Source: an uncultured Selenomonadales bacterium (lineage in GTDB: Bacteria; Bacillota; Negativicutes; Selenomonadales; Selenomonadaceae). From it: a stretch of 64,000 nt of DNA. The stretch's first letter is position 1, and each line of letters begins with the position of its first letter. Shown piece after piece: positions 18,350 through 52,184 of this stretch. Both the position numbers and the translations under genes were made by a program. A model generated the notes under the pieces. It saw nothing but the letters and a program-made list of their open reading frames with translations. It did no database searches and was not told the DNA's origin. The stretch covers positions 1-64,000 of the forward strand of contig CAMUZG010000002.1 in NCBI GenBank assembly GCA_947165145.1. The letters are read 5' to 3'.

Positions 18350-20341
18350 TTGAAGTTCCTGAAAAGATTTTTCGACGGCGTTCAGCGTGACCTGCGGCTG
18401 TTCGTCTTCGTGTTGCTGTTGTTAGAAATTTATCGCGGGTTATTTATTTTTTTCATGTCGAATTTCATGAGCGCGGACTCCGGCACGGCACAAATCGCAA
18501 CGGCAATGTTCGCGGGCTTGCGGCTGAGTTTGAAGACTGCAGGCGCGGTCACGTTGATTTCGTTCGTGCTCGTGACAATCATCGGCTTAAGTTCGCGAAT
18601 TCGATTGCTCATCGGGATTGTAGCGTCGCTGATATTCTCGTTGCTGTTCATGCTACGATTCCCCTACTACCGCGCGTTTCAATCGACATTCGGGCTTGAA
18701 GTCGTGCAGGGCTTCCACGACGATATTTGGTCAATTATCGTCACGATGTTCCAAGAGTACGGCATTGCGTGGAGATTTTTAGTCGCGTTGCTGTTAACGG
18801 TCGCTTGTATCGCGTTGCTTAGTCGGTTGCTGTTGATTAAGTCGTTCCCCTTGCCGAAACTTGAAGGCACGCTGAAGACTGCGGGCTTTGTCGGCGGACT
18901 CGTCGTGGGAATTTTTCTGTTTGGATTGTTCGTGCGATTCGGCGGCAGTTTCACTTACGGTAGCGGAATTAATTGGGAGAATGCTGGCGTCACGCCCGAT
19001 GAATTTTTGAATGAATGTGTGCTTGACGACGTGCAGGCTCTTTATCGTGCTCGGTCTATGGCGAAACGCATGGAGATTGGCGAAATTTCTGGCGTTGACC
19101 CTGATAAAATTCTTGAGTCCGCGCAGATTGTCGCCGTCAACAAAAATCTCACCGAAAAAAATCTCGCGCCGTATCTTGAACGCAAAACTAAGGGCGAACA
19201 CATTCCCAAGCCGCGACATATTTTTATCATTTTGGGCGAAACGTTCATGCAGTGGCCCATGCTCGGCAAGTACGATGAACTTTTGCTCGCCGAAGGTATC
19301 AAGTCGCTCATTGCGGAGGATAAGTGCTACTACAGCCGAAATTTCATGCCAAACGGCGATTTCACGTCGACTGCGGTAACGGGCATTGTCACCGGTCTTC
19401 CCGACGTCAACATCAAAGTCAACTACCAGGCGCGCACGTTCGAGAAACTTTACATCACGTCAGCGGCTCCCGCGTTCAAGGAGTTGGGCTACAAAGTTGA
19501 TTTTTGGTATACTGGCATGCCCAGTTGGGATTCGATTGCAAAGTTGGCGTTGGCACAGGGTTTCAGCAATTTTTACGGTTGCCCCGATTACAACGCGCCT
19601 AAACAAACGACTTGGGGCACGAAGGACGAAAATCTTTTCAATGCATTGTTGTCGCGACTGAATGGTGAGCCGCCGACCGTTCACGTGATTTTGACGACGA
19701 CCAATCACCCGCCTTACAATCTCGATTTGGCGGCGGAAGGTTTCGATTTGGACGCGACGATTGAGAAGTTGAAAAAATTCCCGAACATCGACGACGTGAA
19801 TCAGCTTGCCGTCGAACTCGGTCATTATTGGTACATGGACGAGGTCATCACGAATTTTGTCCGCGCCGCGAGCGAGCGTTGTCCCGAAAGTTTATTCGTC
19901 ATCACGGGCGACCATGCCGTTCGTTGCGACCCGTCGACGCACCCGACAATTTTTGAGCACCAAAGCGTTCCGTTCGTCCTGTACGGCAACGGCGTTACGA
20001 AGGAAATTCTTCCGCCCGATGTTGTCGGAGATCACATTTCGATTGTCCCGACGCTGATTGAGCTTATCGCGCCGAAAGATTTTGCTTACTACTCGATTGC
20101 GCCGAGTCTTTTTGAAAGTGACGGTGTCGGCTTCAACAACGCGGCATTTCTCACGGCGAAAGTTGCGGGGCAAATCGATTCGGACGTTGTGGAGCTGTTG
20201 CCGCACGTCGCCAGTAACGAGCTTAACTCCGTCAATCTTAACGACGAACGCGAACGAGCCATGAAAATTATCGGTGCAATGAGAACCGTCGGTTGGTGGA
20301 TGCTCACGAATGGTTTGTTCTTCGGCGGCAGTGATAATTGA
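18350..20341 (+). CDS. LtaS-like alkaline-phosphatase-superfamily membrane phosphotransferase
   Basis: The 663-aa protein has about five N-terminal membrane segments (to about residue 200) and a large extracytoplasmic sulfatase-fold domain. Visible metal or nucleophile motifs are LGETFM, GDFTSTAVTG and TGDHAVR, plus HYWYMDEVI. The family includes lipoteichoic acid synthases and phosphoethanolamine or phosphoglycerol transferases. In a didermal cell near LPS genes, phosphoethanolamine or phosphoglycerol addition to LPS or glycan is more likely than LTA synthesis. That is inference. The TTG at 18350 was chosen because GGAAGGGG lies 7 nt upstream. A heptamer repeat follows the stop. Confidence 0.8.
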   Translation: MKFLKRFFDGVQRDLRLFVFVLLLLEIYRGLFIFFMSNFMSADSGTAQIATAMFAGLRLSLKTAGAVTLISFVLVTIIGLSSRIRLLIGIVASLIFSLLFMLRFPYYRAFQSTFGLEVVQGFHDDIWSIIVTMFQEYGIAWRFLVALLLTVACIALLSRLLLIKSFPLPKLEGTLKTAGFVGGLVVGIFLFGLFVRFGGSFTYGSGINWENAGVTPDEFLNECVLDDVQALYRARSMAKRMEIGEISGVDPDKILESAQIVAVNKNLTEKNLAPYLERKTKGEHIPKPRHIFIILGETFMQWPMLGKYDELLLAEGIKSLIAEDKCYYSRNFMPNGDFTSTAVTGIVTGLPDVNIKVNYQARTFEKLYITSAAPAFKELGYKVDFWYTGMPSWDSIAKLALAQGFSNFYGCPDYNAPKQTTWGTKDENLFNALLSRLNGEPPTVHVILTTTNHPPYNLDLAAEGFDLDATIEKLKKFPNIDDVNQLAVELGHYWYMDEVITNFVRAASERCPESLFVITGDHAVRCDPSTHPTIFEHQSVPFVLYGNGVTKEILPPDVVGDHISIVPTLIELIAPKDFAYYSIAPSLFESDGVGFNNAAFLTAKVAGQIDSDVVELLPHVASNELNSVNLNDERERAMKIIGAMRTVGWWMLTNGLFFGGSDN

Positions 20342-20413
20342 TTTTAGGTTATAGCTTATAGCTTTTAGGATTACAATTCCTAATTCCAAATTCCAAATTC
20401 CAAATTGTTAAAA
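20342..20413 (+). repeat. Composite heptamer repeat, complete example
   Basis: Module one is TTATAGCTTATAGCTTTTAGG (7-bp period). Module two is a run of ATTCCAA heptamers ending AAATTG. It then merges into TTAAAAGGGAG, which supplies the ribosome binding site of rmlD. Similar composites occur at 28240, 28734 (inverted), 31299 (inverted), 34950, 49258 and 52630. Confidence 0.8.
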
Positions 20414-21304: not shown

Positions 21305-22393
21305 ATGAAACGAGTTTACAATTTCAATCCTGGTCCCGCGACGTTGCCGTTGGAAGTTCTGCGCGAGGCTCAAGCCGAATTTTTGAACTTCGACGATAGC
21401 GGCATGTCGATTATCGAAATCAGTCACCGCGCCAAACCATACGAACGCGTTCACAATCAGGCGAAGGCAGACATTTTGTCGCTGATGAATTTGGGCGACG
21501 ATTACGATGTGCTGTTCATTCAAGGCGGAGCGTCGTTGCAGTTCGCGATGATTCCGCTGAATTTTGCCACGAAAAAAAATCCCGGCTCTTACGTCTTGAG
21601 CGGGACTTTTTCGTCGAACGCATATAAGGAAGCCGCGATTCTCGGTGTCGGTGAAATTGCCGCCTCGACTAAGGAAGAAAATTTCCGCCGCGTGCCCCGT
21701 CAAGACGAGCTCAACATCAATCCGAACGCCGCTTATCTGCACGTCTGCTACAACAACACGATTTACGGCACGGAATTTCACTACGTCCCCGAAACGGGCA
21801 ATGTGCCGCTTTTCGCCGACATGTCAAGCGATATGCTCAGCCGCCCCGTCGATTTTAAAAAGTTCTCGCTGATTTATGCGGGTGTTCAAAAAAATTTGGG
21901 ACCTGCAGGCGTCGTCATTGTCGTCGCGAAAAAATCGCTCATCGAAAAAAGTTTGGAGACTCTCCCGACGATGTTGCGCTACGACACGTTCTACAAGAAA
22001 AATTCGCTGTACAACACGCCGCCCGCGTTCAGCATTTACATGGTCGGCAAAGTCGCCGCGTGGATAAAAAATTCTGGCGGGCTCGAAGAAATGGCTCGTC
22101 GCAACGCAATCAAAGCCAAGTTGCTATACGACGCGATTGACGATTCCGACGGTTTTTATCGCGGTCATGCCGATAAAGATTCGCGCTCCTTTATGAACGT
22201 GACTTTCCGCCTGCCGAACGAAGATTTGGAGAAAAAATTTGTTGCCGAAGCTCTTGAACACAATCTCAGCGGCGTGAAAGGTCATCGGTCTGTCGGCGGA
22301 ATGCGTGCCTCGATTTACAACGCAATGCCGATTGAAGGCGCGGAAGCTCTCGCGGACTTCATGAATTCGTTCAGAAAATCAAACGCATGGTAA
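21305..22393 (+). CDS. serC: Phosphoserine aminotransferase
   Basis: The 362-aa class V aminotransferase converts 3-phosphohydroxypyruvate and glutamate to phosphoserine. It starts VYNFNPGPATLPLEVL, the family signature. The PLP lysine is in IYAGVQKNLGPAG (about residue 196), and the end has GHRSVGGMRASIYNAMP. ATG 21305 follows GGAAGGCG by about 8 nt; ATG 21290 is a weaker choice. The stop TAA is formed at the first bases of structured element A, which starts at 22392. The heptamer-like AATTTGGAATTTG tract precedes it. Confidence 0.93.
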   Translation: MKRVYNFNPGPATLPLEVLREAQAEFLNFDDSGMSIIEISHRAKPYERVHNQAKADILSLMNLGDDYDVLFIQGGASLQFAMIPLNFATKKNPGSYVLSGTFSSNAYKEAAILGVGEIAASTKEENFRRVPRQDELNINPNAAYLHVCYNNTIYGTEFHYVPETGNVPLFADMSSDMLSRPVDFKKFSLIYAGVQKNLGPAGVVIVVAKKSLIEKSLETLPTMLRYDTFYKKNSLYNTPPAFSIYMVGKVAAWIKNSGGLEEMARRNAIKAKLLYDAIDDSDGFYRGHADKDSRSFMNVTFRLPNEDLEKKFVAEALEHNLSGVKGHRSVGGMRASIYNAMPIEGAEALADFMNSFRKSNAW

Positions 22394-22561
22394 CTTGAGG
22401 CCGCCATGGACGGCGGCCACCGGCAACACGTCCATGGAAAGGACGTTTTGCCGGAACCACAAGCTACGGTTAGTCTCAACGTTGGATTCGTTACGACTGA
22501 ACGCCCCCGCGAGGTGCCTTTTCTTTTGCTACTTTTCTTTGGGCAACGCAAAGAAAAGTAG
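22392..22561 (+). ncRNA. Structured repeat element, copy A (candidate RNA)
   Basis: About 170 bp share a common plan with copy B at 50643. P1 is GGCCGCC (22399-22405) with GGCGGCC (22412-22418). P2 is CCGGCAA/TTGCCGG plus ACGTCC/GGACGT (22420-22454). A nearly invariant 65-nt core runs from AGCTACGG to CGAGGTGCC. P3 pairs 22529-22541 with 22549-22561. In copy B the P2 arms are different but still pair, and P3 has one swapped base pair, which supports a folded molecule. It lies between serC and leuC. It could be a regulatory RNA or a REP/MITE-like mobile element; neither was recognised by name. Confidence 0.6.
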
Positions 22562-22612: not shown

Positions 22613-22708
22613 ATGGCAATGACAATGAGCGGCAACGTGACGTTGCATCCAGATGTCGCGCCGCAATGTGTCAGCTGTCGAACGTGGCAACCGCGCTTGA
22701 ATCGATAA
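22613..22708 (+). CDS. Small ORF duplicating the leuC start
   Basis: A 31-codon ORF with a strong ribosome binding site (AGGAGAG) starts MAMTMSGN, while leuC starts MAMTMSEK. The first 19 bases of both ORFs are identical. After the shared start comes the palindrome CAACGTGACGTTG, then a short tail with two cysteines. It lacks a Leu run, so it is not a classical leu attenuator peptide. It is probably a partial duplication of the leuC start, perhaps still translated. Confidence 0.45.
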   Translation: MAMTMSGNVTLHPDVAPQCVSCRTWQPRLNR

Positions 22709-22730: not shown

Positions 22731-24065
22731 ATGGCAATGACAATGAGCGAAAAAATTCTCGCACGACACGCGGGACTTGACGCCGTCGAAGCAGGTCAAC
22801 TGATAATCTGCGATCTCGACCTCGTCATGGCTAACGACGTGACTGGTCCGCCGTCAATCAAAGAGTTTGAGAAAATCGGACGCCCCGTTTTCGACGCAAA
22901 CAAAATCGCACTGGTTCCCGACCACTTTCAACCTGCCAAAGACATCAAAAGCGCAGACCTCGCCAAAACCATGCGCGACTTCGCACGCAAAAATAAAATT
23001 AAATATTATTTCGAACAGGGACGCGTCGGCATTGAACACGTCATTTTGCCCGAATTCGGCATTGTCGCCCCGGGCATGTTGATTATCGGCGCGGACAGCC
23101 ACACTTGCACTTACGGCGCGGTTAACGCATTTTCGACGGGCGTCGGCACAACTGACTTGGCTGTCGGTTTGGCGACTGGTAAAGCTTGGTTCAAAGTCCC
23201 CGAAGCCATTAACGTTCACTTGACGGGCGAGAAGCCTAAGAACATTTGCGGCAAGGACGTTATTCTTACGCTCATCGGCAAAATCGGCGTCGACGGCGCA
23301 CTTTACAAGGCTCTCGAATTCACAGGCGAAGGCGTCAACGAACTTTCAATGACTGACCGCTTGACGATCTCGAACATGGCGATTGAGGCGGGCGCGAAAG
23401 CTGGCGTCTTCCCGTTCGACGAACGCACGAAGTTTTACGTTGCCAACCGCGTCAAGAAGCCGTTTGAGCCTATTTACGCTGACGAAGATGCAGAATACTG
23501 CGCGACTGTCGAAATCAATTTGAGCGAACTGAAACCCGTCGTTGCACTGCCTCATTTGCCTGAAAACGTCAAACCTGTTGACGAACTCGGCGAAATAAAA
23601 ATCAATCAAGTCGTCATCGGTTCCTGCACGAACGGTCGCCTTGAGGATTTGAGCATTGCGGCGGGAATTCTGCGCGGACGCAAAGTTCATCCCGACGTTC
23701 GCTGCATAATCATTCCTGGCAGTCAAGAAATTTACAAAGAAGCTATGCGTTGCCGTTGGATTGAAATTTTTATTGACGCGGGCTGTGTCGTGAGCTGTCC
23801 GACTTGCGGACCGTGTCTCGGCGGCTACATGGGCATTTTGAGCGCGGGCGAACGTTGTGTTTCGACGACCAATCGCAATTTCCGTGGACGCATGGGACAC
23901 GTTGACAGCGAAGTTTATTTGGCAAGCCCGTTCGTTGCGGCGGCATCTGCAATCACTGGAAAAATTTCTACGCCGGAGGAGGCAATTCAATTTGGAATTA
24001 GGAATTTGGAATTTGGAATTAAAATTCCTAAAAGTTCAAAGCTAATTCGGAATGAGGAATGTTAA
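22731..24065 (+). CDS. leuC: 3-isopropylmalate dehydratase large subunit
   Basis: The 444-aa aconitase-family subunit isomerises 2- to 3-isopropylmalate in leucine synthesis with LeuD. The [4Fe-4S] cysteines lie in GSCTNGR (about residue 302) and [10 protein letters not shown] (about 361-367). The size matches the short, archaeal-type LeuC (about 420 aa) plus a tail. The last ~25 residues (from [11 protein letters not shown]) are encoded by the ATTCC/GGAAT heptamer repeat that has run into the gene, so this tail is not ancestral. ATG 22731 follows GGGAGG. leuD starts at the base after the stop. Homoaconitase-like substrates are possible but less likely. Confidence 0.92.
23984..24050 (+). repeat. 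Heptamer repeat inside the leuC 3' end
   Basis: TTGGAAT/TAGGAAT heptamers repeat through the last 70 bases of leuC and are translated. This is the same sequence class as the intergenic ATTCCAA/ATTCCTA module, in inverted orientation. Confidence 0.8.
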
Positions 24066-28301: not shown

Positions 28302-28736
28302 GTGAGTGCCAAGGACACCGCTCAGCTTGAAAACGATTTGACTGCTTCGGACGACGTGAAAAAATTCCTGACCGATAACGCGGAAAATCTTCGGGAATTC
28401 ACGTTGGCGCAGTATCTGAAGAAATTGCTTGACGAAAAAAATTTGACGCGTGCGCAAGTGATTCGCGATTCGCAACTGGACGAAGGTTACGCTCAACACA
28501 TTTTCGGCGGCAGAAAAAATCCTTCGCGCGAAAAAATTTTGTCGCTCGCTTTGGCAATGAAACTGTCGCCCAAAGAGGCTGATTATCTTTTGTACTACGC
28601 GGGGCACGAAAAACTTTACGCCCGCAACAGCCGCGACGATGTGATTGCTTACGCGCTGAACACGCAGAAAACCGTTTTGCAGACGAACGAGCTTTTGACG
28701 GACTTGCAGTTAAAGCCTTTGCTTGACGACAATTAG
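28302..28736 (+). CDS. Helix-turn-helix regulator-like protein
   Basis: The 144-aa protein contains an XRE-like HTH (LTRAQVIRDSQLDEGYAQHI, about residues 48-67, then GGRKNPSREKILSLALAMKL). The rest is helical. GTG 28302 follows GGGGG by 8 nt. It is divergent from the Ser/Thr kinase gene, separated by a heptamer repeat. This pairing suggests that the kinase phosphorylates the regulator or that the regulator controls the kinase; both are inference. Confidence 0.7.
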   Translation: MSAKDTAQLENDLTASDDVKKFLTDNAENLREFTLAQYLKKLLDEKNLTRAQVIRDSQLDEGYAQHIFGGRKNPSREKILSLALAMKLSPKEADYLLYYAGHEKLYARNSRDDVIAYALNTQKTVLQTNELLTDLQLKPLLDDN

Positions 28737-28783
28737 GAATTAGGAATTAAGAACCTATAAGCTATAAGCTAACAGCTAAAAAA
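28734..28783 (-). repeat. Heptamer repeat, inverted copy
   Basis: GGAATTAGGAATTAAG followed by CTATAAGCTATAAGCTAACAGC. It is the reverse orientation of the element at 20342 and lies between two convergent genes, where it can form neither gene's leader. Confidence 0.7.
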
Positions 28784-31302: not shown

Positions 31303-31362
31303 GAATTAGGAATTTGAAATTACAAAACCTAAAACCTATAAGCTATAAGCTACATTTCAATC
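31299..31362 (-). repeat. Heptamer repeat, inverted copy
   Basis: TTAGGAATTAGGAATTTG, then ACCTATAAGCTATAAGCTAC. The order of modules is reversed relative to 20342, so the element is inserted in the opposite orientation, between the hybrid kinase and the STAS gene. Confidence 0.7.
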
Positions 31363-34360: not shown

Positions 34361-34951
34361 ATGAACAGAAGAAATTTTTTTGAACTCGCGGCGTTGACGC
34401 TTGCGGGTTTCTTTTTTGGCAACGAAAAAGCGTCCGCCGATTACGTCTTAGATACTTGGGAACCGCCGATAAAAAAATTATTTTTGAAGTTCACGGAGTA
34501 CGAAGAACGCTCGACGACCGAGGTTATCGTGATTCACCACGCGGGCTTCCCCGACGCCGACAAAGATTCTTCCGCCGAAGACATTCACAAATTTCATCAA
34601 GAAGTCAACGGTTGGGCGGGTATCGGCTATCACTACGTCATTCGCAAGGACGGCACGATTGAACAAGGTCGTCGCCCGAAAGCTGTCGGTGCTCACGCCT
34701 ATCAGCACAACAAAAATTCAATCGGGATTTGCGTCGCGGGAAATTTCAATCTTGCCAAACCGAACACTAAGCAAATGGAATCGCTAAAACTTCTGACGGC
34801 GTGGCTTTGTAAAAAATATCGGCTCAACCCGATGAGTAAAGGCGTTATCGTCGGGCACAGAGACTTTAACGACACGGCTTGCCCAGGCGACAATCTTTAC
34901 TCGCGATTGGGCGAAGTGCGGCGTTGGTGTCGAGATTTTCTCAAGGATTAG
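34361..34951 (+). CDS. N-acetylmuramoyl-L-alanine amidase, PGRP-like, with twin-arginine signal
   Basis: The 196-aa enzyme should cut the bond between muramic acid and the stem peptide in peptidoglycan. Zinc ligands are in VIVIHHAGF and GHRDFNDTACPG; the middle has YHYVIRKDGTIEQGR. The N-terminus is MNRRNFFELAALTLAGFFFG, with an RRNFF twin-arginine motif and a hydrophobic stretch, then a likely cleavage after KASA. Tat export is inferred. Start ATG 34361. It has AAGGAG about 10 nt upstream, embedded in the duplicated phosphatase tail. Confidence 0.9.
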   Translation: MNRRNFFELAALTLAGFFFGNEKASADYVLDTWEPPIKKLFLKFTEYEERSTTEVIVIHHAGFPDADKDSSAEDIHKFHQEVNGWAGIGYHYVIRKDGTIEQGRRPKAVGAHAYQHNKNSIGICVAGNFNLAKPNTKQMESLKLLTAWLCKKYRLNPMSKGVIVGHRDFNDTACPGDNLYSRLGEVRRWCRDFLKD

Positions 34952-35012
34952 CTTTAAGCTGTTAGCTTTTAGGTTTTTAACTCCTAATTCCAAATTCCTA
35001 ATTCCAAATTGA
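34950..35012 (+). repeat. Composite heptamer repeat before rpsO
   Basis: TTTAAGCTGTTAGCTTTTAGG followed by AACTCCTAATTCCAAATTCC and a second CTAATTCCAAATTG unit. Forward orientation, directly upstream of the rpsO promoter. Confidence 0.8.
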
Positions 35013-48225: not shown

Positions 48226-49260
48226 GTGAGAAAAAAATTTATAGCGGGCGCGGCGATTCTCGCGTTGCTGATGAATTCGCCGCAAGTCTCGGCGGACGAC
48301 GACGTTGTAATTTTCGGCGGGGAATTTGACGACGAAGCCGATCAACCTGCACCAAAGAAAATCGAAAAGCCTAAACCCGTCGAGCAACCTAAACCCGTCA
48401 AAGAAGTTCCTAAGCCCGTCGAGCAACCTAAGCCCGTCGAACAATCTAAACCCGTCGAACAACCTAAACCCGTCGAACAATCTAAACCCGTCGAACAACC
48501 TAAACCCGTCGAACAACCTAAACCCGTCGAACAACCTAAACAAATTGAAGTAGATCGACCGTTCGAGCAGCCAACGGAAATTTCTGGCGGACAAGAACCC
48601 GTCAAAGTAGTGCCACCGCCCGCGCAGATAATCAATCAACCGAAACCCGAACCTATCACTGAGCCGCCGCAACAAATTCAACCGCGACAAATTCAACCGC
48701 GACAAGTTCAGCCGCCGCAGAAATTGAAAGTGCTCAAGCCGCGTTTCATCAAGTTGGCGGTCGACGAAACGTACACTTACTATCTGGACAAAAATTCCGT
48801 GCAGTGGCGCAAGATGCCGTACTCGTCGAGCGAATACATTGCTGACGTTTGGATTCGTTTGGTTGAGCGTGCGCCCAAAAAGCTTGACGGTGACATGGCG
48901 GCTTACGGCGAGGACAATTTCAGCGCGGAAATTGCTTTGGCACGCGACAAAGGCTATCAGTATGCGCCCGAAGATTTGCAGGTTTTGCGCAGTCAAGCTT
49001 ACGTGTTGGAGCATTATTATCTGCGCCCGAAGACAAATCAAGTGCAATTTCTCTGTGAGCTGGAAGTTTTTGGTCGTCCTCAGAACACGATTAACGAACG
49101 CGCTTACGATTACAAGAATTGGGAAAACCTGGTGCCCGGCAGCGTTGAATCGGTTGTGTACGAGGCGACGATTAAAATTATCGGCAAGTCGAAGGCAAGC
49201 GAACGCGGTCACATGACTTTTAGCGATATGCTTGACGAATACTTGAGAATTTCTCTGTGA
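48226..49260 (+). CDS. Secreted Pro-rich repeat protein
   Basis: The 344-aa product has a signal peptide (KKFIAGAAILALLMNSPQVSA), an acidic start, then a KPVEQP-type hexapeptide repeat (about residues 47-106), a Pro/Gln linker and a conserved-looking domain from about 170 (FIKLAVDETYTYYLDKNSVQW, then ADVWIRLVE). The C-terminal domain resembles small beta domains seen in other secreted proteins of this window, but no family is named. GTG 48226 follows AGGA. The repeat could span peptidoglycan, holding the domain near the outer membrane. Confidence 0.75.
   Translation: MRKKFIAGAAILALLMNSPQVSADDDVVIFGGEFDDEADQPAPKKIEKPKPVEQPKPVKEVPKPVEQPKPVEQSKPVEQPKPVEQSKPVEQPKPVEQPKPVEQPKQIEVDRPFEQPTEISGGQEPVKVVPPPAQIINQPKPEPITEPPQQIQPRQIQPRQVQPPQKLKVLKPRFIKLAVDETYTYYLDKNSVQWRKMPYSSSEYIADVWIRLVERAPKKLDGDMAAYGEDNFSAEIALARDKGYQYAPEDLQVLRSQAYVLEHYYLRPKTNQVQFLCELEVFGRPQNTINERAYDYKNWENLVPGSVESVVYEATIKIIGKSKASERGHMTFSDMLDEYLRISL
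48367..48540 (+). repeat. 18-bp minisatellite coding KPVEQP
   Basis: CCTAAACCCGTCGAACAA and close variants repeat about nine times in frame. Some units differ by one codon (CAATCT for CAACCT). An in-frame repeat of this kind can change length by slippage without breaking the gene. Confidence 0.9.
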
Positions 49261-49325
49261 TTAGCTTTTAGCTTTGAGCTGTTAGGATTACAACTCCTAA
49301 CTCCAAATTCCTAACTGTTAGAAGG
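49258..49325 (+). repeat. Composite heptamer repeat before the CorC-like gene
   Basis: TTAGCTTTTAGCTTTGAGCTG, then AACTCCTAACTCCAAATTCC and TAACTGTTAGAAGGG. Forward orientation; supplies the ribosome binding site of the next gene. Confidence 0.75.
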
Positions 49326-49337
49326 GTTTGAATTTTT

Positions 49338-50615
49338 TTGGAAACGTCACTAATCCCGCCTGCGCTGATAATTTTATTGGCGGCGGTAAACGGATACTTT
49401 TCGTTGATTGAAACCGCGCTGATAGAATCTCTCCGCGGGCGACTAGAAAAATTATCGGAAGACGGCGACGCAAATGCCGACGAAGTCTTGACAATGCTTG
49501 AATCACCCGTACCGCTTTCGGTTGCGCAAATCGGAATCACCTGCACGGGAATTTTGGCGGGCGTATGCGCTGTGCTGTCGATACCGCCAATCTCCGCCAT
49601 ACTCAACAACTATTTCGGGCAAGAAAAAATAATTTCGGGCGTGATAGCCGTGAGCGTCACGACGTTTATTTTTTTGCTGTTCGGAGAATTTTTGCCTAAA
49701 CAAGCCGCTAAGCTCGACCCCGAAGGTTTTCTGCTCAATCATTACAAATCGTTCCGCGTGATAGTCAAGCTGATGACTCCGTTCGTTATCGCGCTGTCGA
49801 AAATTGCGGACGCAGTGTCATTTATCTTAGGCGTGAACATTTCGCGGAACGACACCGTCACCGAGGACGAAGTTAAAGATTTGATTGAGCAAGGCACCGA
49901 GGACGGCACGATTGAAAAATCCGAACAGGAAATGGTCGACAGGATTTTTGATGTCGGCGACGAGACCGCTTATTCGCTGATGACGCCGCGCGTTAAAATT
50001 GTTTGGCTCGACTTGGACGACGATTTGGAAAAAAATTTGCAGGTCGTGCAGGACAGCCCGTACACAATTTTTCCCGTCGGCGCAGGCAGTCTGGACGATT
50101 GTCGCGGGCTCATCTACGCTAAAGATTTGCTCAACGCCGTGTTGCAGAACGGTCGCTCAATCGATTTTAACGCGCTGATTCGCAAGGCAAATTACGTTCC
50201 ACGAACAATGGAGGCATTCCGCATTGTCGAAAAGTTTCGTTCAAGCGGCATAACCGAGGCGATGGTCAACGACGAATACGGCGGCATTATCGGCTTTATC
50301 ACTCTCGATGATATTTTGGGCGAGATTGTCGACATTGCCGGCGATGAGGTCGTTGATCAGCAATTCAAGCGCAACAAAGATAATTCTTGGACTGTCGACG
50401 GCTTGTGCGACATTGACGAATTCAAAGAGCGTTTCGACATTGAAACATTGCCCGAAGAGGAACGCGACCATTTTCAGACGATGGGCGGCTTTTTGACTTC
50501 GCGTTTCGGCTACATTCCTAAAGTCGGCGAAACTTGCGATTGGAACGGTTTCCGCTTCAAAGTCAAGGAAATGGACGGCGTGCGTATCGGAAAAATTTTG
50601 ATTACCAAAATTTAG
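49338..50615 (+). CDS. CorC/HlyC-family membrane CBS-domain protein
   Basis: The 425-aa protein has a DUF21/CNNM membrane domain (about residues 1-150; IETALIESLRGRLEKL and FGEFLPKQAA), two CBS domains (about 205-330; SLMTPRVKIVWLDLDD and YGGIIGFITLDDIL) and a CorC_HlyC C-terminal domain. Relatives are linked to magnesium or cobalt efflux; some are called hemolysins without proof. TTG 49338 is preceded by GAAGGG from the heptamer repeat. It is followed by an isolated start codon and structured element B. Confidence 0.88.
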   Translation: METSLIPPALIILLAAVNGYFSLIETALIESLRGRLEKLSEDGDANADEVLTMLESPVPLSVAQIGITCTGILAGVCAVLSIPPISAILNNYFGQEKIISGVIAVSVTTFIFLLFGEFLPKQAAKLDPEGFLLNHYKSFRVIVKLMTPFVIALSKIADAVSFILGVNISRNDTVTEDEVKDLIEQGTEDGTIEKSEQEMVDRIFDVGDETAYSLMTPRVKIVWLDLDDDLEKNLQVVQDSPYTIFPVGAGSLDDCRGLIYAKDLLNAVLQNGRSIDFNALIRKANYVPRTMEAFRIVEKFRSSGITEAMVNDEYGGIIGFITLDDILGEIVDIAGDEVVDQQFKRNKDNSWTVDGLCDIDEFKERFDIETLPEEERDHFQTMGGFLTSRFGYIPKVGETCDWNGFRFKVKEMDGVRIGKILITKI

Positions 50616-50628
50616 GAGGCAAACAATC

Positions 50629-50649
50629 ATGTCCAACGAAGAAACTTGA
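50629..50649 (+). pseudogene. Truncated ORF start cut by structured element B
   Basis: AGGAGG, then ATG 50629 and five more codons (MSNEET), then a TGA formed inside the element (ACTTGAGG). A strong ribosome binding site with almost no ORF suggests a gene interrupted or replaced by the element. A very short leader peptide is the alternative. Confidence 0.5.
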
Positions 50650-50814
50650 GGCCGCCAAGGACGGCGGCCGTCCCGTCGCCCAGAAAACGTGATGTTTTCG
50701 AAGGCGACAACCACGAGCTACGGGTAATCTCAACGTTGGAATCGTTTGGACTGAACGCCCCCGCGAGGTGCCTTTTCTTTTGCAACTTTTCTTTGGGCAT
50801 GCAAAGAAAAGTTG
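50643..50814 (+). ncRNA. Structured repeat element, copy B (candidate RNA)
   Basis: It has the same plan as copy A. P1 is GGCCGCC (50650-50656) with GGCGGCC (50663-50669). P2 is GTCGCC/GGCGAC with an inner GAAAAC/GTTTTC (50675-50708), unlike copy A in sequence but equal in form. The invariant core with CTGAACGCCCCCGCGAGGTG follows. P3 pairs 50783-50795 with 50802-50814. It lies 45 nt before the fliI ATG and so could be in the fliI leader. Confidence 0.6.
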
Positions 50815-50858: not shown

Positions 50859-52184
50859 ATGATTAAAAACGAAATCAACCTTCAAAAGCTCCGCAACGCA
50901 ATCAGCGAATGCAACACGATTAAATTGACGGGCAAAGTCACTCAAGTAGTTGGATTGGTTATCGAGACGCAAGGTCCCGCCGTCAGCGTTGGCGAACTCT
51001 GTTATATCTCGTCGCGATTTCCGAACGTGCCGCCCATTCCCGCCGAAGTCGTTGGGTTCCGCGAAGGTTTCGTCATGCTCATGCCGATTGGCGAAATGCA
51101 AGGCGTCGGACCCGGTTGTGAAGTTGTTGCCGCACAGAAAACACTTCAAGTCAAAGTCGGCGACGAACTTCTCGGACGCGTGCTTGACGGTCTCGGCAAC
51201 CCGATGGACAATCTCGGACCGCTGCTTTCGACGACGCAATATCCACTGCAAGCACCGCCACCGCATCCGCTCACGAGACCGCGAATCAAACAAAATCTTT
51301 ATGTCGGTGTCCGCGCAGTCGACGGGCTCATCACAATGGGCGACGGTCAACGTATCGGAATTATGGCGGGCTCAGGCGTCGGCAAGTCAACGTTGCTGTC
51401 GATGATTGCACGCAACACGGAGGCTGACATCAGCGTCATTGCACTTATAGGCGAACGCGGGCGCGAAGTTCGTGACTTCATTGAACGCGATTTAGGCGAA
51501 GCTGGACTTAAACGTGCTGTTGTCGTCGTGGCAACTTCAGATCAACCTGCTCTCGTGCGTATCAAAGGCGCGATGACTGCCACCGCCATTGCCGAATATT
51601 TCCGCGACCAAGGACACAAAGTTATTCTGATGATGGATTCAGTCACACGCTTTGCAATGGCTCAACGTGAAGTCGGCTTGACAATCGGCGAGCCGCCCGC
51701 AACTAGAGGTTACACGCCGTCAGTCTTTGCACTGTTGCCGAAACTTTTGGAACGCGCGGGAACTTCTGACACCGGTTCAATCACGGGCATTTACACTGTC
51801 CTTGTCGACGGCGACGACATGAACGAGCCGATTGCCGACGCTGTTCGCTCAATTCTCGACGGGCACATTGTCTTGAGCCGCTCAATCGCCGCGCAGAATC
51901 ATTTCCCCGCCATTGACGTTTTAGGCAGTGTCAGCCGCGTCATGAATGAAGTCGTCAGCAAAGAACATCTTCAAGCCGCGCAGAAAATGCGTGCGTTAAT
52001 GGCGGTCTACAAGGACGCTGAAGACTTGATTCACATCGGCGCGTACGTCAAAGGCTCAAGCAAGCGCATTGACGAGGCGATAAGCAAAATCGATTCTATT
52101 AACGAGTTTCTCTGCCAAGGCATTTTCGAGGTCGACAGCTACGACGTGACCAGGCAGAAGCTCTTAAAGATTTCCGGTAAGTGA
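50859..52184 (+). CDS. fliI: Flagellar export ATPase FliI
   Basis: The 441-aa F1-like ATPase powers substrate handling by the flagellar type III secretion system. Walker A is GIMAGSGVGKSTLL (about residues 165-178). The ATPase signature ends in PKLLERAGTSDTGSITG, and the N-terminal beta barrel is normal. ATG 50859 follows GGAGG. fliJ comes next with one base between. The fliE-F-G-H genes that normally precede it are absent; structured element B is there instead. Confidence 0.94.
   Translation: MIKNEINLQKLRNAISECNTIKLTGKVTQVVGLVIETQGPAVSVGELCYISSRFPNVPPIPAEVVGFREGFVMLMPIGEMQGVGPGCEVVAAQKTLQVKVGDELLGRVLDGLGNPMDNLGPLLSTTQYPLQAPPPHPLTRPRIKQNLYVGVRAVDGLITMGDGQRIGIMAGSGVGKSTLLSMIARNTEADISVIALIGERGREVRDFIERDLGEAGLKRAVVVVATSDQPALVRIKGAMTATAIAEYFRDQGHKVILMMDSVTRFAMAQREVGLTIGEPPATRGYTPSVFALLPKLLERAGTSDTGSITGIYTVLVDGDDMNEPIADAVRSILDGHIVLSRSIAAQNHFPAIDVLGSVSRVMNEVVSKEHLQAAQKMRALMAVYKDAEDLIHIGAYVKGSSKRIDEAISKIDSINEFLCQGIFEVDSYDVTRQKLLKISGK

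Follow-up and report, generated by a model that had tools for sequence, protein, structure and literature searches.

In the 64,000 nucleotides of DNA analysed here (the window), which originate from an uncultured Selenomonadales bacterium, a structured element occurs twice with a hairpin, P2, that is formed by unrelated sequences in the two copies, which raises the question of what is conserved in this element and to which end. A sequence-only reading had placed the copies at 22392-22561 and 50643-50814 and had taken the full pairing of both P2 hairpins, next to a shared hairpin P1, a nearly invariant core of ~65 nucleotides and a shared terminal hairpin (P3 in that reading, S2 in the following), as the mark of selected folding. 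Both copies are present at these positions, and P1, P2 and the terminal hairpin pair in either of them as claimed. The main structural feature of the element, a predicted triple-helix pseudoknot at the 3' end, was absent from this account. The parts of both copies are located as follows.

22392..22561, + strand: copy A of the dispersed element, directly adjoining the stop codon (22391-22393) with which a 378-aa ORF ends; the next ORF is at 22731
22399..22418, + strand: copy A, P1 hairpin with the loop ATGGAC (A-N-GGA-Y)
22420..22454, + strand: copy A, P2 hairpin of type I (CCGGCAA..TTGCCGG, ACGTCC/GGACGT, loop ATGGAAA)
22472..22498, + strand: copy A, small third hairpin (AGTC/GACT, AACG/CGTT, loop TTGGATT)
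22515..22518, + strand: copy A, S1 5' strand TGCC, which pairs with GGCA at 22542-22545 to give a pseudoknot, as assigned from sequence and covariation
22520..22527, + strand: copy A, predicted third strand L1 TTTCTTTT, matching the purine strand AAAGAAAA at 22550-22557 in parallel
22529..22541, + strand: copy A, S2 5' arm CTACTTTTCTTTG, assigned from covariation
22542..22545, + strand: copy A, S1 3' strand GGCA inside the S2 loop, assigned from covariation
22549..22561, + strand: copy A, S2 3' arm CAAAGAAAAGTAG, predicted to supply the triplex with its purine strand, assigned from covariation
50643..50814, + strand: copy B of the element, following the ORF 49338-50615 and preceding the ORF at 50859
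50650..50669, + strand: copy B, P1 hairpin with the loop AAGGAC
50675..50708, + strand: copy B, P2 hairpin of type II (GTCGCC/GGCGAC, GAAAAC/GTTTTC, loop GTGAT)
50769..50772, + strand: copy B, S1 5' strand TGCC, partner GGCA at 50796-50799
50774..50781, + strand: copy B, predicted third strand L1 TTTCTTTT, matching AAAGAAAA at 50803-50810 in parallel
50783..50814, + strand: copy B, S2 hairpin CAACTTTTCTTTG / CAAAGAAAAGTTG, whose loop contains the S1 3' strand (50796-50799)

We take the 378-aa ORF preceding copy A to be serC-like and the ORF at 50859, on the 3' side of copy B, to be fliI-like, both names being assigned by reading and not by family models. Compared to dinucleotide shuffles, the energies of the RNA folds correspond to z values of -4.9 for copy A and -2.8 for copy B.

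A DNA search with copy A as query identified 37 copies in the source genome, a draft of 1.94 Mb in 43 contigs that is 82.8% complete. The description as a two-copy element thus holds within the window but not for the genome, and the core, nearly invariant between A and B, is far less so across the 37 copies. Sequence comparison assigns the element to a large bacterial repeat family whose copies are dispersed and lie mostly between genes. Throughout the 37 copies, P1 is 100% paired and its loop reads A(N)GGAY (37/37), and the pairing of P1, S1 and S2 together extends to 98.4% of 925 cells, compared to 37-55% in slid-register controls. Two-sided changes in the same three stems number 70, against 17.5 in shuffles. 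A swapped base pair in the terminal hairpin (T22530-A22560 in copy A, A50784-T50813 in copy B), to which the earlier reading had pointed, was confirmed and is found repeatedly across the family, where the column pair 156/188 is A-U in 19 and U-A in 16 cases. The proposed covariation is found in P1, S1 and S2 of the 37 copies, but not in P2 of the two window copies. Both P2 hairpins do pair, yet their contrast is mainly a choice among few hairpin types that are each near-constant in the genome, with P2 belonging to type I, II or III except for one outlier. These types are not tied to particular triplex classes, which makes the copies mosaic, and we attribute the P2 contrast between A and B to an exchange of hairpins between copies; the idea that P2 covaries gradually in this genome was abandoned in favour of discrete types. 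GGA is contained in most P2 loops, whereas about 10 of the 37, including the one of copy B, read GTGAT and lack it. The small third hairpin is weaker and varies more among the genome's copies. A helix with wobble pairs on the minus strand around this hairpin was rejected, as its partners do not co-vary upon inspection of the alignment.

At its 3' end, every one of the 37 copies reads GGTGCC-TTTTCTTTTG-CTACTTTTCTTTG-GGCA-CG-CAAAGAAAAGTAG or a variant thereof. The segment preceding the first pyrimidine tract pairs with the loop of the S2 hairpin to form S1 (TGCC/GGCA), thus defining an H-type pseudoknot, of which both stems are supported by covariation. The tract L1 (TTTCTTTT) is a mirror of the S2 5' arm. 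Its match to the purine strand AAAGAAAA is therefore a parallel one, the orientation needed for U.A-U and C+.G-C triples, so that three tracts are found in a Hoogsteen-compatible (mirror) register on one strand. For copy A, seven U.A-U triples and one C+.G-C triple are predicted. The parallel match between L1 and purine strand is seen in 37/37 copies, which fall into the classes (3,4), (4,3), (3,5), (4,4) and (3,3), and a purine arm AAAAGAAAG is accompanied by a tract TTTTCTTT and a purine arm AAAGAAAAA by a tract TTTCTTTTT, a rule that is kept in all 37. The same rule is obeyed in relatives (A5GA4/U5CU4, A6GA3/U6CU3) and by tracts with two C at loci matching the Rfam family TwoAYGGAY, described below (e.g. 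AAGAGAAAG/TTCTCTTT). By its pattern of pairing, the 3' end of the + strand is an H-type pseudoknot with L1 in parallel register to the purine strand of S2, and we infer that L1 forms a major-groove pyrimidine triple helix with S2.

As control for this register we considered an antiparallel arrangement, with L1 substituting for the S2 arm and not acting as third strand. This alternative is contradicted by run lengths, both in asymmetric hairpins, where 74 are mirror and none direct, and in an anchored register test, carried out on sets that had been fetched without any triplex-shaped query. In this test, the parallel match was found in 36/38 cases in the own genome, 67/73 in relatives and 23/25 at TwoAYGGAY loci, and direct-only matches in none. 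The maxima in 1000 permutations were 32, 46 and 17, respectively, which disregard descent and, the own copies being kin, overstate independence within the genome, and the stronger argument thus lies in the spread across unrelated sets. On these T-rich tracts, a longest-common-substring form of the mirror test had no discriminatory power, unlike the anchored form. Covariation and register tests together provide good support for the original proposal that the folding of a single strand is under selection. At loci L324, L326, L333, L335 and L336 of genome G028, we observed a variant triplex that has a CTA triloop, no room for S1 and 10 predicted triples (U5CU4/A5GA4, U6CU3/A6GA3).

Among the closest 60 genomes, including the source genome, 28 contain a match, all from the same genus and many spanning the 3' part only, and the full 170-nt element type was found in the Selenomonad group only among the genomes searched. 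A pattern scan of species genomes retrieved at least 120 stretches, which were selected by mirror shape and hence left out of the evidence for the triplex; the matches listed include Paraburkholderia, Xanthomonadales, Stutzerimonas, Aeromonas, Methylomonas, Pasteurella, Desulfobacterales, Bacteroidota, Selenomonadaceae and others. Defined by its predicted fold, the triplex module is shared by Proteobacteria, Bacteroidota and Selenomonadales. The pattern had left S1 free, and in 73 unique elements from other groups this stem is 84% Watson-Crick paired, compared to 39% (maximum 47%) in shuffled sequences, comprises 15 distinct perfect 4-bp stems and covaries across phyla. Phage records contained no match to the element, and plasmid records matched its short triplex part only. 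On the IMG/VR contigs L359 and L364, a GGA hairpin is followed by a triplex module, suggesting that carriage by phages or prophages is possible. In L131, L138 and L088 from Proteobacteria, an apparent second small pseudoknot was recognized by eye just 3' of the triplex (e.g. CTCGGCTGTCGGGCCGAGACCCGAC), with a stem CTCGG/CCGAG and a loop GTCGGG that pairs with CCCGAC, and with the variants GCCGGG/CCCGGC and GTGGGT/ACCCAC.

The sequence-only reading had recognized no known family, and the window is indeed without a match in Rfam at gathering score. The covariance model of TwoAYGGAY (RF01731) reaches 29.9 bits on copy A at a cut-off of 43, and 18 further loci, 15 of them copies from the own genome, showed no Rfam match at E<=0.5, TwoAYGGAY included, so that the element is not a formal member of this family. 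Weak Rfam matches of the miRNA type were discarded as low-complexity noise. The likeness to TwoAYGGAY consists in two hairpins with AYGGAY-type loops, present in copy A and most other copies, with the P2 loop of copy B being GTGAT, and in the frequent location of its gammaproteobacterial matches directly 5' of a triplex module, whereas the Rfam consensus, as displayed with the match to copy A, does not contain matching pyrimidine tracts. In 18 of 30 TwoAYGGAY matches examined, a strict triplex module follows within 220 nt on the same strand, a proportion that comes from genomes picked for having the module and is no rate for the whole Rfam family, and several of the other matches are followed by a shortened or interrupted module. 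A link between TwoAYGGAY and a 3' triplex was not found to be mentioned in the open-access literature. TwoAYGGAY has been predicted by Gardner and Eldai to bind CsrA (PMC4333381). Upstream of the module, hairpins with GGA loops number 1.8 per own copy compared to 0.15 in shuffles, 1.5 compared to 0.12 in relatives and 0.75 compared to 0.24 elsewhere. The host genome contains a CsrA gene, and GGA in hairpin loops combined with CsrA in the host is the arrangement looked for in sRNAs of the CsrB/RsmZ type. The loops of P1 and P2 are perhaps docking sites of the CsrA type (ANGGA).

The genomic surroundings bear on the way the element spreads. Copy A is part of a 340-nt gap between the ORF ending at 22393 and the ORF starting at 22731, and in the relative genome G001 the same gene pair is separated by 22 nt that contain no element. 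No conserved genomic position was found in relatives, which mostly do not share the gene order and are thus rarely comparable. In the own genome, 22 copies are sense and 2 antisense to both neighbours (two-sided sign test about 4e-5, calculated by hand on genes called by a codon-usage script and not a gene finder). A general sense orientation was rejected, since relatives show no sense bias and since other groups are distributed as ++34, --29, +-29 and -+9, with convergent exceeding divergent sites by 29 to 9 as in REP repeats. The GGA hairpins contain few wobble pairs, which would be expected of pairing that is maintained at the level of DNA. No match to the Y1 (RAYT-type) transposase PF01797 was obtained in the draft genome (82.8% complete), and no gene recurs among 315 neighbours. 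Inverted head-to-head pairs are found in Paraburkholderia and Pseudomaricurvus; in the former (L099, L101, L122, L135, L160, L164) and in contigs of G479, they are ~280-640 bp apart with the triplex ends pointing outward, as in BIMEs. Going by the placement of its copies, the family spreads like a REP/MITE repeat. Such a dispersed repeat had initially been set against the idea of selected folding, provided that it did not covary beyond the two copies; the element is a repeat of this kind but covaries well beyond two copies.

We consider it somewhat better than an even chance that these observations are, as a whole, best explained by a dispersed triplex-pseudoknot repeat with a possible role as mRNA clamp linked to CsrA. 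In such a mechanism, genes would be transcribed through the element, as would hold for both copies in the window, 3'-to-5' exonucleases would be stopped by the triplex pseudoknot in the inter-gene mRNA, the GGA loops would serve as docking sites for CsrA, the stability or translation of neighbouring cistrons would track CsrA status, and copies would disperse in the manner of REP/MITE repeats. A function at the level of RNA is suggested by the CsrA-type loops upstream, which are strongest in Selenomonads, by CsrA in the host and by the sense bias in the source genome, and one at the level of DNA by the few wobble pairs, the lack of a general orientation and the REP-like spread; the missing sense bias in relatives and other groups argues against a general mRNA role, and the P2 loops that lack GGA likewise count against the clamp. 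Taken alone, we infer the clamp mechanism with a confidence clearly below even and regard a selfish DNA repeat as about as likely. Latter would be a REP/MITE-like sequence without host role, which folds in single-stranded DNA of the lagging strand or of a transposition intermediate and is mobilized by an enzyme acting in trans, a sizeable possibility that still falls short of an even chance. It would account for dispersed copies at non-orthologous positions, for the gap between the serC-like and the next gene that is empty in G001 and filled in the source genome, for the lack of an orientation bias and the rarity of divergent sites in other groups, for the scarcity of wobble pairs and for the inverted pairs, but it is at odds with the lack of a Y1 transposase in the draft genome and of a recurrent neighbour, with CsrA-type loops common to different groups and with the strong sense bias in the source genome.

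We deem it improbable that the copies act as a CsrA sponge, being transcribed as small RNAs that jointly titrate the protein with 3' ends shielded by the triplex, since they are scattered, mosaic and mostly located between co-directional genes instead of forming free-standing units, and since similar modules are found in records of Bacteroidota, which to our knowledge generally do not contain CsrA. Consistent with a sponge are the invariant A(N)GGAY loop of P1, GGA in most P2 loops, CsrA in the host and the CsrA binding predicted for TwoAYGGAY (PMC4333381). For BoxC/PIT repeats, a triplex within one DNA molecule (H-DNA-like or intrastrand) has been proposed to arrest replication or transcription. 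Such a role of the element would require exactly the mirror symmetry that is kept and has precedents among bacterial repeats, but is quite improbable as S1 and the GGA hairpins, neither of which duplex H-DNA needs, covary independently and as BoxC triplexes were undetected in vivo (PMC4666352).

Intrastrand triplex repeats known in bacteria comprise PIT, BoxC and TM-ECO and are collected in the ITxF database (PMC4666352). These are likewise dispersed and allow a triplex from one strand, but BoxC and TM-ECO are G/C-rich and of the purine motif, and loops in the ITxF search were restricted to 1-6 nt, a range that excludes the 7-9 nt loops of the element type; the word pseudoknot is absent from that paper (PMC4666352). 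Whereas the BoxC/PIT/TM-ECO pattern is CCCTCNCCC..GGGNGAGGG..GGGNGAGGG, the tracts of the element are T/C, T/C and A/G. The pseudoknotted pyrimidine type is thus a new variant of a principle already known. With REP/BIME and MITE repeats, the element has in common that it is short, intergenic, palindromic, multicopy and mosaic with some inverted pairs, but no RAYT gene was found in this draft genome, and we know of no triplex pseudoknot as REP feature. U.A-U major-groove triples are found in MALAT1/ENE and in the H-type triplex pseudoknots of telomerase RNA and of the SAM-II/SAM-V and guanidine-III riboswitches. Like these, the element is predicted to contain U.A-U triples, which reside in H-type pseudoknots or at RNA 3' ends, but no sequence relation was seen, and the element is multicopy and carries GGA hairpins. 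ENE triplexes shield RNA from decay (e.g. PMC12501189). It appears less likely than not that the cassette represents, across several phyla, a bacterial equivalent of MALAT1/ENE in the form of a mobile RNA with a pseudoknot-locked triplex end that shields against 3' exonucleases and is coupled to CsrA, of which TwoAYGGAY would be the 5' half. If the triplex forms, bacteria would hold a natural pyrimidine triple-helix pseudoknot in many copies, with triples that can be tracked by covariation, which is rare, the orphan TwoAYGGAY RNA would be extended with a testable function suggested for it, and the three separate topics of triplex repeats, REP-like repeats and CsrA regulation would be joined.

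The window contains further repeats. The stretch that separates copy A from the next gene is flanked by a 19-nt direct repeat ATGGCAATGACAATGAGCG (22614-22632 and 22731-22749); it also contains CAACGTGACGTTGCATCCA, which recurs in locus L260, suggesting another repeat. A different dispersed family, TTAGCTTTTAGG...CTAATTCCAAATTCC, is found at 20328-20397, 34932-35001 and 49245-49314 and inverted at 28731-28781 and 31325-31352, and 18-nt tandem repeats CCTAAACCCGTCGAACAA of the PKPVEQ type extend over 48335-48571 within the ORF 48226-49260. Finally, a six-codon ORF ATGTCCAACGAAGAAACTTGA at 50629-50649, located behind a Shine-Dalgarno-like GGAGG, terminates with a TGA within the start of copy B.
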